From Pseudomonadota bacterium (lineage in GTDB: Bacteria > Desulfobacterota > Syntrophorhabdia > Syntrophorhabdales > Syntrophorhabdaceae): DNA of 64,000 nucleotides. The notes beneath the pieces were generated by a model that had not been told where the DNA came from, ran no database searches, and worked only from the letters and a program-made list of their open reading frames with translations. Below, one piece after another: positions 60 through 13,268 of the stretch. The DNA is taken from assembly GCA_026388315.1 (NCBI GenBank), contig JAPLKA010000118.1, positions 1 through 64,000 of the forward strand. The letters run 5' to 3'. How positions within the stretch are numbered: position 1 is the stretch's first letter; each line of letters begins with the position of its first letter. Made by a program: the position numbers and the translations under genes.

Positions 60-244
60 GAGGGATGGTCCGACACCCATGATGATCCTAATGATAAATT
101 TGGGCTAAGTTGTTGTTTCAAGCCGGAAGAACTTTGCAGCTTCTTCGTCGCCGGAACTCAAGAAACTCCAGTAATCCAATCTGTTTAACAATTTGGCTTG
201 AAAGAATTGTAAATTCACATCATTTCAGGTATAAAGTATATCAC

Positions 245-1483
245 ATGCATACAGTGCTCATAATAGACGATGAAAAGGCAATACTGGACAGTCTGTCCTC
301 CATTCTCCAGGATGAAGGTTTTCAGGTATTCAAGGCAATAGACGGCAATGAAGGGTTGGCTCTCTTTGAAAAGGAAAGACCTGAAGTAGTCCTCCTTGAT
401 GTATGGATGCCGGGGATGGATGGCCTCCAGGCGCTGAAACGGATAAAGAAGAAAGACAAGGATGCCATGGTTATTGTTATATCCGGACACGGGACAATAT
501 CTACGGCTGTTGAAGCGGTTAAGAGGGGGGCTTACGATTTCCTCGAAAAACCCCTCTCAATAGATAAGGTGTTAGAGGTGATTTCAAGGGGTTTGGGGCT
601 GGACATTGGCAGGGCAGACAAGACTGAAAACGTTAAGGTTGGCATTACAAAGGGCCCGGACACCCGTAAGCAGAAAACAATAGGAAAGAGCATTGTTGTC
701 TATGGGTTGGGGCTTCATTCGGGCGTGAAGACGGGCATGATACTACTACCCATGCCGGAAGACACAGGTATTATATTTGAGCACATGCCGGATGGTGAAC
801 GGATACCGGCCTATATCGATTATGTCTTTTCTGTGGGATATGCCTCATCTTTGAAAGGGAAAAATTGCCTTGTCCGTACGATTGAGCATCTGCTCGCAAC
901 ATGCCACATGTACGGGATCACAAACCTCCTTATAAAGGTAAGCGAGGAGGTGCCTATCCTCGACGGTTCATCGATAGAGATATGTAAAAAGATCGATGAG
1001 GCAGGCATTGTGGAACAGCAGGAAGGCATTGAACCTTTGCGGGTGTATGACCCCATCGTGCTCCCCGGCCTTTCAGACGGAAAATACCTCTCAATTGAGC
1101 CATGGGATGTATTTGAAATCGATTATACCCTTGAGCACCCGAAGCCCATAGGTATCCAGGAGTATCGTTTTATCGGTGGAAGAGAGAATTTTGTAAACGA
1201 AATAGCGCCTGCGAGGACATTCGGCTTTTTAAAGGACTTTGACAGGCTTGAAAAAATGGGTCTTGGCTCAGGCGGGCGAATGAGCAATGTGATTATCCTG
1301 AATGATGAGGGGGTAATTAATACAAAACTACGCTTTGAGGACGAGTTTGTGAGGCATAAAGTGCTTGACCTCATCGGTGACATCTATCTTCTTAACAGGC
1401 CTATTATCGGCAAGATCACTGCGAAGCAGACAGGACACATTGAAAACATTGCGCTTGTTAAGGCGTTAAAGTCGAAACAGTAG
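245..1483 (+). CDS. lpxC: Response-regulator receiver domain fused to LpxC deacetylase
   Basis: A 412-residue protein. Residues 1-115 form a complete receiver domain: acidic pair D8/D9, phospho-acceptor D52 in LLDVWMPGMDG, S80 and K102 (EKP). Residues about 145-412 form a complete LpxC, the zinc UDP-3-O-acyl-N-acetylglucosamine deacetylase that commits precursors to lipid A in the cytoplasm. It has QKTIGKSI and GLGLHSG near its start, TIEHLLA with zinc ligand H215, LDGSS, HKVLD with H371 and D375, and GHIEN with H398. Known LpxC enzymes are about 300 residues without a receiver. ATG 245 is chosen because the receiver starts there; the frame stays open upstream to 110 without domain content. 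The ribosome binding site is weak. Regulation of the deacetylase by phosphorylation is inference. No kinase gene is adjacent. Confidence 0.93.
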   Translation: MHTVLIIDDEKAILDSLSSILQDEGFQVFKAIDGNEGLALFEKERPEVVLLDVWMPGMDGLQALKRIKKKDKDAMVIVISGHGTISTAVEAVKRGAYDFLEKPLSIDKVLEVISRGLGLDIGRADKTENVKVGITKGPDTRKQKTIGKSIVVYGLGLHSGVKTGMILLPMPEDTGIIFEHMPDGERIPAYIDYVFSVGYASSLKGKNCLVRTIEHLLATCHMYGITNLLIKVSEEVPILDGSSIEICKKIDEAGIVEQQEGIEPLRVYDPIVLPGLSDGKYLSIEPWDVFEIDYTLEHPKPIGIQEYRFIGGRENFVNEIAPARTFGFLKDFDRLEKMGLGSGGRMSNVIILNDEGVINTKLRFEDEFVRHKVLDLIGDIYLLNRPIIGKITAKQTGHIENIALVKALKSKQ

Positions 1484-9947: not shown

Positions 9948-11339
9948 TTACTTGTTCGTGTAATCAAGAATGTCTCCCTTTTCCTTCATCTTCTTGACCT
10001 TGAACCATAATTTGTCATATGACATATTGAGGAGTTTCGCTGCAAGGGATATTTTGCCTTCTGCTTTTATGACCGCCTTCTTTATGAATTCCCTTTCAAT
10101 CTCTTCAAAGTTCAGTCCTTCGTCGGGTATTTCAAAATGTTTTGAGAGGTTTCTTCCGCTTTCCTGCTTTACCTCTTCAGGCATATAATCTATGCTGATG
10201 GTATCTTCTTCACACATGATGTAGGCCCTTTCCGTCACCGATTCGAGCTGTCTTACATTACCCGGCCAGGAATATTTCATCAGGAGTTGTAATGCTTCAT
10301 TGGAAATACCCTTTTTCCCCTCATGGTTTTCGTTCAATTTTTTTAAGAAATGTTCCACAAGAAGCGGGATATCCGCCATTCTTTCTCTTAAAGGGGGTAT
10401 CGAAAAGGCGATCACGTTTAATCTGTAATAAAGGTCTTCGCGGAATCTACCCTTTGCTATCTCTTCCTCAAGTCTTTTGTTCGTTGCTGTAATAATTCTA
10501 ACGTCGAGCTTGATATTTTCCTTACCCCCGATTCTGCGAACTTCCCTTTCCTGGATGGCCCTCAAGAGTTTTGCCTGGGTATTGAGCGTTAAATCGCCTA
10601 TTTCGTCAAGGAACAGGCTACTCCCGTTTGCCTGTTCAAAGAGTCCCGCATGACGGGTCAGCGCACCGGTAAACGCTCCCTTCTCGTATCCGAAAAGCTC
10701 GCTCTCAAGGAGCGTCTCAGGTATGGCAGCACAATTAATCGCAAAGAAGGGCTTGTTTTTCCTCGGACTGTTATAATGGATGCTCTTTGCAAAAAGTTCT
10801 TTTCCAGTGCCGCTTTCACCGTAAATGAGGACCGTTGAATTAGTCGGGGCAACCTTTTTCACAATCTTGAAGAGTTCCTCCATTCTCCCGTGGACGCCTA
10901 CGATGTTATCAAGGCTGAACCTGTCGTGAAGCTGGTCCTTCAGCATGATATTGTCTTTCAGGAGTTTGACCTGGTTCATGGCATTGCTGATTACGATAAG
11001 CAGTTGGTCTTTTTCAAAGGGTTTTTCAAGATAATAAAAGGCGCCAAGCTTTGTGGCCTCTATAGCGGACGGGATTGAGCCATAGGCAGTAATAATAATG
11101 GCATGACATGTCCTGCCAACCCTTTTTACCTCTTTAACCACTTCTGTGCCGTCGATGTCCGGAAGCCTTAAATCCGTTACCACCAGATCAAAGGAACCGC
11201 CTTTAATCTGCTCAATCGCCTTTTTGCCGCAGTCCACGTCCTCCACAAAAAAACCTTCCTTTGTGAGGATGGTTTTGATAATGCCTCTCTGGTTATTATC
11301 ATCTTCCACTAAGAGGATATTGCCTTTATCAAGCTTCAC
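9948..11339 (-). CDS. Sigma-54-dependent response regulator, NtrC family
   Basis: A 463-residue activator with an N-terminal receiver (EDD near residue 12, phospho-Asp in VVTDLRLPD, Lys in LEKPFEK), a central AAA+ domain with Walker A GESGTGKE, the sigma-54 contact loop GAFTGA, LFLDEIGDL and the arginine-rich second region of homology, and a C-terminal Fis-type helix-turn-helix (ISLAAKLLNMSYDKLWFK). It activates RNA polymerase with sigma-54. It overlaps the upstream histidine kinase by 11 bases and is the last gene of the carD operon, so the kinase is its probable partner. Targets are not visible here. Confidence 0.95.
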   Translation of the reverse strand: MKLDKGNILLVEDDNNQRGIIKTILTKEGFFVEDVDCGKKAIEQIKGGSFDLVVTDLRLPDIDGTEVVKEVKRVGRTCHAIIITAYGSIPSAIEATKLGAFYYLEKPFEKDQLLIVISNAMNQVKLLKDNIMLKDQLHDRFSLDNIVGVHGRMEELFKIVKKVAPTNSTVLIYGESGTGKELFAKSIHYNSPRKNKPFFAINCAAIPETLLESELFGYEKGAFTGALTRHAGLFEQANGSSLFLDEIGDLTLNTQAKLLRAIQEREVRRIGGKENIKLDVRIITATNKRLEEEIAKGRFREDLYYRLNVIAFSIPPLRERMADIPLLVEHFLKKLNENHEGKKGISNEALQLLMKYSWPGNVRQLESVTERAYIMCEEDTISIDYMPEEVKQESGRNLSKHFEIPDEGLNFEEIEREFIKKAVIKAEGKISLAAKLLNMSYDKLWFKVKKMKEKGDILDYTNK

Positions 11340-12801
11340 GATACGGCACCTTAATTGTAATTGTTGTCCCCTCGCCCACCTTGCTTGCTATTGCTATTGT
11401 CCCGCCATGTTCTTCTACGAACCGTTTTGTAACGCTCAGACCAAGTCCGATGCCGAGCTTTTTTGTAGAATAGTATGGCTCAAAGATTTTATCAAGCTCT
11501 TCAGGCCCGATGCCCCCGCCATCATCAAGGACAGAGATGCAGGAATAGGAATCTTCCCTGCCGCATTCAATGTGCACAGCACCTTTATCGTCAATAGCCT
11601 GAATGGCATTCAACAGGAGGTTGGTGACACATAGCCTCATATATTCCCGGTCGCAATATATAGGCTGGCTGTTTTCTTTACAGGTTACCCGGATGTCTAT
11701 GCCCTTTCTTACCTTATCCTTTAAAATAAAGAGCACCTCGCTTATGAGGGCTTCCGGTTCAACGAACTCCTTGTGCAAGGTTATGGGTTTGCCAAGGAAA
11801 AGAAAATTGTGGATCAGTTCATTCACTCTGTAAATTTCCTTTGTCACATCATCGAGAAGCTTAATGAGCCCTTCCTTGTTTCTGATATTCTCCTCTAAGA
11901 TCCTTTCTTTGATATGCCCGACTGATAATGATAAAAAGTTAAGGGGGTTTCTGATCTCGTGGGCTATTCCTGAAGATAGTTGACCTATCATTGAGAGCTG
12001 TTCGGTTTTTTTCAATTTTTCTTCCAGTTCCTGTCGTTCGCCAAGTTTATCAACCATCTCATTGAAACTCCGGATGAGCACACCTATCTCGTCCTTACGG
12101 TGACTCTTGTCCCTTATCTTGACCAACTCGCCCTCAGCGATCCTTTTACTTGCCCGCGCTATTCTTTTAATAGGCTCTGTATATTTGTCTGCAATGAGAA
12201 GGCTCACGATGATGCCTATACTGAAGACAAAGACGGTGCTCAATATCCTCTTTAAGTGATTCTTTTGCGAGAGGAGCTTGTAATCATCCAGCACCATATT
12301 GATATGGATATACCCAATGTTCTGTCCTTTTACCGATACGGGCATTATTATATTGTAGAGGCGTTGTGTTTCCTTTTTGCTCTCTTCACCAAGGCGGGCC
12401 GTAATCATCAAATCCTTTTTTCTCCAACTCCTTTTTTCACCTATCTTTTCCTTTGTCCCTATCTTTTTTGGGTCAGAACTTGCAATGACTTCCGAACTGT
12501 CACTTAAAATCGATATCTCTTTAATGCCCTTTTTATTCAACATATCCACGTAGCTTTTCAGCCTTTCCGTGCTGCTGCCTTTATAGGTCAATTCTTCCAC
12601 GCTGATCTGAATGGCCTTTGTAATATCGTCTATATTTTCCGTTACCTTATCGATAATCATATCTTCTGTTCTCGAATAGATGATTGATAAAGAGCTTATG
12701 GAGATAACGAGAAGGAAAAGCAGGATGAGCAGGAGTTGTGTCCTCAGGGACAGGCTTCGGAAAATGTCTTTTATGGAGGAGATGATGTTCAGTTTAATCA
12801 T
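11329..12801 (-). CDS. Membrane sensor histidine kinase, NtrB/AtoS type
   Basis: A 490-residue kinase. A transmembrane helix at about residues 18-45 is followed by a periplasmic sensor of about 130 residues, a second helix (VFVFSIGIIVSLLIA), a HAMP domain, the phospho-acceptor His in GIAHEIRNPLNF, and an ATPase domain with N box NAIQAI, DDGGGIG and GIGLGLS. It overlaps ispF by 4 bases (ATGA) and the NtrC-type regulator by 11 bases, so all three are translationally coupled. The signal sensed is unknown. Confidence 0.94.
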   Translation of the reverse strand: MIKLNIISSIKDIFRSLSLRTQLLLILLFLLVISISSLSIIYSRTEDMIIDKVTENIDDITKAIQISVEELTYKGSSTERLKSYVDMLNKKGIKEISILSDSSEVIASSDPKKIGTKEKIGEKRSWRKKDLMITARLGEESKKETQRLYNIIMPVSVKGQNIGYIHINMVLDDYKLLSQKNHLKRILSTVFVFSIGIIVSLLIADKYTEPIKRIARASKRIAEGELVKIRDKSHRKDEIGVLIRSFNEMVDKLGERQELEEKLKKTEQLSMIGQLSSGIAHEIRNPLNFLSLSVGHIKERILEENIRNKEGLIKLLDDVTKEIYRVNELIHNFLFLGKPITLHKEFVEPEALISEVLFILKDKVRKGIDIRVTCKENSQPIYCDREYMRLCVTNLLLNAIQAIDDKGAVHIECGREDSYSCISVLDDGGGIGPEELDKIFEPYYSTKKLGIGLGLSVTKRFVEEHGGTIAIASKVGEGTTITIKVPYREA

Positions 12802-13268
12802 TTTTTTACTAACGCCACTGCATATACCGCTATACCTTCTTTGCGTCCTGCAAAGCCGAGTCCTTCAGTGGTTTTTCCTTTTAAACCCACCTGTGCCGGA
12901 TCTATCTGAAGAATGTTTGATATGGTTTCGATCATGATTTTTCTATAAGGGAGGATTTTTGGTTCTTCTGAAACAACAACGGCGTCTATGTTTTCAATTT
13001 TAAACCCCTTGTTTTTTAACAGTTTGCCAACGAAAGATAAAATGTTTCCGCTCTTTATGTTTTTAATACCCTGGTCTGAGTCAGGGAAGTGAAGACCGAT
13101 ATCGCCTTCAGAAATGGCACCAAGGAGGGCATCGCAGATTGCGTGTATCAGAACATCACCATCGGAATGGCCCAGCAGGCCTTTGTTAAAGGGAATTTCG
13201 ATCCCTCCGAGGAATAATTTCCTTCCCTCCACCAGGCGATGCACATCGTATCCGATCCCGACTCTCAT
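12798..13268 (-). CDS. ispF: 2-C-methyl-D-erythritol 2,4-cyclodiphosphate synthase
   Basis: A 156-residue enzyme of the MEP isoprenoid pathway that cyclises CDP-methylerythritol 2-phosphate to the 2,4-cyclodiphosphate. Metal ligands D8 and H10 lie in GIGYDVH and the third His in LGHSDGDVLIHA; TTEGLGF is also present. The start at 13268 gives the usual length; a start at 13307 would add 13 residues and overlap ispD. It follows ispD closely and overlaps the kinase gene. Confidence 0.95.
   Translation of the reverse strand: MRVGIGYDVHRLVEGRKLFLGGIEIPFNKGLLGHSDGDVLIHAICDALLGAISEGDIGLHFPDSDQGIKNIKSGNILSFVGKLLKNKGFKIENIDAVVVSEEPKILPYRKIMIETISNILQIDPAQVGLKGKTTEGLGFAGRKEGIAVYAVALVKK

Follow-up and report, generated by a model that had tools for sequence, protein, structure and literature searches.

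The window, a stretch of 64,000 nucleotides from a genome of the class Syntrophorhabdia, carries at 245-1483 on the forward strand a gene for a 412-amino-acid protein in which a response-regulator receiver is fused to LpxC, and this open reading frame is the sole lpxC of the 3.8-Mb assembly, which has no stand-alone form. The receiver, of the NtrX type, occupies residues 4-113 (254-583; Pfam Response_reg 108 bits, E 3.6e-31), a flexible linker follows at residues 118-140 (596-664), and the LpxC deacetylase domain spans residues 143-409 (671-1471; Pfam LpxC 260 bits, E 3.7e-77), all on the forward strand. The LpxC domain also exceeds the curated cut-off of TIGR00325, at 226.9 bits versus 187.25. 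An initial annotation of this DNA, made from the letters alone, had described a complete receiver joined to a complete LpxC that both keep their key residues, and the two Pfam scores, an alignment of 55 fusion sequences, and a survey of 112 fused open reading frames bear this out.

In the alignment of 55 sequences, the receiver residues D8, D9, D52, S80, and K102 are invariant, as are E214, H215, H371, K372, D375, and H398 of the LpxC domain. The predicted phospho-acceptor D52 (398-400) lies in an NtrX-like motif, DVWMP, with tryptophan at position 54; the aspartate is present in 110 of the 112 fusions and the tryptophan in 111. E214-H215 (884-889), which supply the catalytic base and a zinc ligand, the catalytic and zinc-binding residues H371-K372-x-x-D375 (1355-1369), and the catalytic histidine H398 (1436-1438) are kept in all 112, and position 325 is threonine or serine. 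Loss of receiver residues in relatives had been named as a finding that would speak against the initial annotation, yet the phosphorylation set is intact in 110/112; the two exceptions are one truncated sequence (L166) and one with its N-terminal part out of frame (L182). By family score and residues the protein reads as an LpxC deacetylase, and by its acidic pair, phospho-aspartate, Ser/Thr, and lysine it reads as a response regulator as well.

Judged by dN/dS against the related locus L084 (0.057 for the receiver, 0.024 for LpxC), both domains are under purifying selection, and the linker is far more variable, with low identity between relatives. A structure model gave confidence (pLDDT) of ∼94 for the receiver and ∼92 for LpxC, joined by a low-confidence linker at 119-139 with values below 60 at about residues 121-139, and the mean pTM, 0.88, is a hint that receiver and LpxC are arranged in a defined way. 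Foldseek searches matched LpxC crystal structures, including A. aeolicus LpxC (4oze) with a TM score of 0.96.

Translation of the fusion appears to begin at the receiver. A predicted promoter, TTGTAA-N17-TATAAA, lies at 207-235 on the forward strand, directly 5′ of the receiver ATG, and a TTGTAA-N17-TAxAAT element or close variant ends 6-10 nt upstream of that ATG in 30 of 34 loci of the class. The conservation of this region (window positions 197-244) across class loci L083-L111 suggests a near-leaderless lpxC transcript. As the predicted 5′ end coincides with the ATG or lies only a few bases away, this promoter would leave no start beyond the receiver possible, and a methionine occurs anywhere in the linker in just 28 of the 91 receiver-LpxC fusions. 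An internal start 3′ of the receiver, which the initial annotation had also raised as a finding that would count against it, was rejected on both grounds, and promoter position and linker composition together argue for translation from the receiver ATG.

The fusion is widespread. Of the 46 class genomes, 42 have it in full, which excludes a chance join or a chimeric assembly; of the other four, three gave no LpxC and one a partial match. A sample of 395 genomes was drawn from the phylum, and the 90 fused forms among its 362 LpxC-positive genomes, about a quarter, fall in 25 families. These were counted from the search listing, in which fused forms have E-values of 2.4e-59 or better and the listed unfused ones begin at 6e-54. 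Most of the genomes compared are metagenome assemblies. In a tree of 143 LpxC domains, the fused forms all fall on one side of a branch with support of 99 and thus form one clade. Beyond the phylum, the fusion occurs in 29 of 29 Brachyspiraceae genomes sampled and in single loci whose records carry the labels Myxococcota and Acidobacteriota; a further search around the L008 genome gave the same fused set, so the label of L008 may be wrong. The search for this architecture and its spread recommended at the outset returned a broad distribution.

Several genomes carry more than one form or an uncertain label. In family f35, two genomes (G288, locus L341; G246, loci L213 and L214) have an unfused lpxC adjoining ntrY together with an additional Brachyspira-type receiver-LpxC, possibly acquired by horizontal transfer. 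Genome G091 has an lpxC of each kind, fused and unfused (L260 and L180), and its estimated contamination of 5% means that the two forms may reflect a mixed bin. A contig under the title Bifidobacterium breve has an LpxC of Acidobacteria-like sequence (L049) and is probably mislabelled or from a contaminated bin.

The best full-length family for the window receiver is NtrX (NCBIfam NF051870), which matches the receiver part only, at 131.8 bits and below the cut-off of 600. Stand-alone NtrX proteins of the phylum also score beneath this value (497-533 bits), and as the cut-off fails to separate NtrX in the phylum, trees and gene order were used. The receiver tree places the window receiver inside a clade of NtrX and fusions with support of 96/92; it comprises only 125 columns and by itself does not resolve a single fusion event. 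In a tree of joined receiver and AAA+ domains, the fusions are sister to NtrX (support 99), with 22 other NtrC-type regulators outside. The tryptophan two residues past the phospho-aspartate is found in 111/111 readable fusions and in 12 of 13 NtrX proteins whose motif was read, and the other regulators whose motif was read lack it. An NtrX origin of the receiver is strongly supported by these comparisons. The protein is nonetheless NtrX-derived and not itself an NtrX because AAA+ and Fis DNA-binding domains are absent from it in Pfam searches. Both trees rejected derivation of the receiver from an NtrC-type regulator encoded nearby, for example that at 9990-11321. That regulator, which has intact AAA+ and Fis domains and lies outside the NtrX clade, forms a separate two-component pair with a histidine kinase (11332-12864) on the reverse strand at 9990-12864.

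Unfused relatives show where such a receiver could have come from. An ntrY gene lies 3′ of lpxC in 18 of 47 unfused loci, mostly in the order lpxC-DUF4390-ntrY-ntrX (L219, L220, L221, L228, L232, L236, L251, L256, L258, and others), and NtrX follows NtrY in 15 of these 18. DUF4390 (PF14334; e.g., L220:1585-2169) sits between lpxC and ntrY, is often still upstream of ntrY in fused genomes, and may belong to the NtrY signal.

Intermediate forms also survive. In 21 fusions, an AAA+ domain still lies between receiver and LpxC, and 16 of these also keep the Fis helix-turn-helix, giving a gene order of ntrY followed by receiver-AAA+-Fis-LpxC; Fis is also lost in five Desulfomonile-type fusion proteins. 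The Walker A motif of the AAA+-bearing fusions is mostly retained and Walker B is degraded, while the sigma-54 contact loop GAFTGA is found in none of the 21, versus 14 of 15 stand-alone NtrX proteins. The other 91 fusions have the receiver-linker-LpxC form of the window protein. These domain and motif comparisons show that the NtrX output domains decay among the fusions, whereas the catalytic residues of LpxC remain complete.

The sensor kinase NtrY accompanies the fusion in 115 of the 119 fused genomes. At 29 fused loci, the gene of an NtrY-type kinase immediately precedes the fusion on the same strand, in many cases with an overlap, and fused genomes outside the class without an adjacent NtrY have it elsewhere in 40 of 44 cases. 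Every one of the 46 class genomes encodes a single NtrY-like kinase of ∼710 amino acids, set in a pgeF-ntrY-smpB-like context in most of 15 loci read, none of which has an adjoining NtrX. The copy in the window genome (G000:C110:13712-15835) is unlinked to the fusion; judged as an NtrY-type kinase by NtrY_N, HAMP, PAS, HisKA, and HATPase domains, it has kinase domains above their cut-offs and a weak NtrY_N, at 19.2 bits versus a cut-off of 23.2. In a kinase tree, the class kinases fall beside the NtrY group and apart from other kinases, and two Brachyspira kinases are of uncertain place. An unlinked NtrY is followed by NtrX in 1 of 35 fused genomes (L338 in G320, the only such case seen), in contrast to 15/18 unfused loci (Fisher p 2e-9, a value that ignores shared ancestry).

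Taken together, the window protein is best read as an NtrX-derived regulator in which LpxC, the probable target, has taken the place of the DNA-binding output, with NtrY phosphorylating D52 and so setting LpxC output; we put the probability of this reading at roughly two in three. The regulator would at first have controlled the lpxC gene, then fused to the LpxC enzyme, and afterwards shed its transcription domains, in steps that would still be visible in living lineages. Once phosphorylated at D52 by NtrY, a membrane sensor kinase, the receiver would change conformation and affect the attached LpxC in its activity, assembly, or stability, such that a two-component signal would determine lipid A flux at the post-translational level. 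With an NtrX switch fused to LpxC, the sensor kinase may act on the enzyme and not on its gene, and direct NtrY input to LpxC would replace transcriptional control of lpxC by NtrX. It also seems probable, if a little less so, that the response regulator here is the committed enzyme of lipid A synthesis, and that NtrY controls outer-membrane synthesis directly through a stepwise domain swap that ousted transcriptional control. The initial annotation had proposed direct two-component control of LpxC; the parts for it stood up, with an intact NtrX receiver across 25 families and NtrY in nearly all fused genomes, while the control as such is what we infer from sequence, together with phosphotransfer, the effect on LpxC and its direction (activation or inhibition), and the signal sensed. 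The NtrX origin, the kinase, and the breadth of the fusion go beyond that annotation.

The phosphorylated receiver might instead govern the turnover or location of LpxC, not its catalysis, as a phosphorylation-gated adaptor for a protease such as FtsH or by membrane recruitment near NtrY. LpxC is regulated by proteolysis in enterics (PMC12444477), no C-terminal extension is obvious in the window protein, and a search of the genome with the LapB profile NF008757 returned only TPR noise and nothing above the curated cut-off, leaving room for another device; a flexible, fast-evolving linker would also suit such a role. No protease tag or adaptor is identifiable in the sequence, however, and the modelled pTM hints at a defined domain arrangement, which makes this alternative rather unlikely. 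A kinase other than NtrY could also serve the receiver, for example the histidine kinase at 11332-12864, which lies 8-10 kb from the fusion within the window. The absence of linkage between NtrY and the fusion in the class favors such a kinase, as does Brachyspira: full-length NtrY was not found in six Brachyspiraceae genomes tested, the receiver is intact throughout the family (L305-L308 and 25 further genomes), and a different kinase must therefore serve there. For the window protein this is improbable, as the kinase in the window adjoins its own NtrC-type regulator, the receiver is of the NtrX type in genomes that almost always encode NtrY, and the NtrY of the class has no other NtrX. A receiver kept only as a structural leftover of gene fusion, aiding fold or solubility with no signalling role, is conceivable given that gene fusions can be fixed neutrally and that lpxC and ntrYX adjoin in unfused relatives, but it is very improbable when the phosphorylation quintet persists across 25 families under purifying selection while the AAA+ and Fis domains that derive from that ancestor too are degraded or missing.

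Earlier work had linked an NtrC-type regulator and the NtrYX system to lpxC. In D. vulgaris, lpxC is the only mapped target of the NtrC-type regulator DVU2934, and in S. fumaroxidans the operon orthologous to that of DVU2934 lies directly downstream of lpxC (PMC3333781). DVU2934 carries GAFTGA (PMC4641369), and as its operon setting matches lpxC-DUF4390-ntrY-ntrX, this synteny indicates that DVU2934 is probably NtrX. Loss of NtrYX in R. sphaeroides raised lpxC mRNA 8.8-fold (PMC7240162). A 2025 review of lipid A regulation covers proteolysis and transcription and contains no receiver-LpxC protein (PMC12444477), and the Brachyspira genome paper lists lpxC with its receiver unremarked (PMC2650404). 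Searches of open-access journal papers, this review included, gave no prior description of a receiver-LpxC protein.

LpxC sets the amount of lipopolysaccharide in Gram-negative bacteria, and its known controls are proteolysis of the enzyme or transcription of its gene. A phosphorylatable LpxC, if true, would give signals a direct way into outer-membrane synthesis, and the living intermediates would illustrate how a transcription factor comes to regulate its own target as a fused domain. The connection of NtrYX with the envelope, which is debated, would become testable in one purified protein, and there would be a bearing on LpxC inhibitors for bacteria that have the fused form.

Response regulators with enzymatic outputs include those of the CheB, GGDEF, EAL, and HD-GYP types. 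Like the window protein, they join a phosphorylatable receiver to an enzyme, but their enzymes act in signalling, whereas that of the window protein is biosynthetic and belongs to envelope metabolism. NtrX of the NtrYX system resembles the window protein in receiver sequence, in the tryptophan after the phospho-aspartate, and in its partner NtrY, and is tied to lpxC by gene order or regulation (PMC7240162, PMC3333781); the window protein differs in having neither the sigma-54 AAA+ domain nor the DNA-binding domain, and in an output that is an enzyme of lipid A synthesis. With LpxC (TIGR00325, PF03331) it shares the complete catalytic domain, zinc site, and fold, and differs by its N-terminal receiver. 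The LpxC-FabZ fusion (PRK13188; PMC3087551) likewise joins LpxC to another protein in certain phyla, but there the partner is metabolic and no regulatory domain is present.
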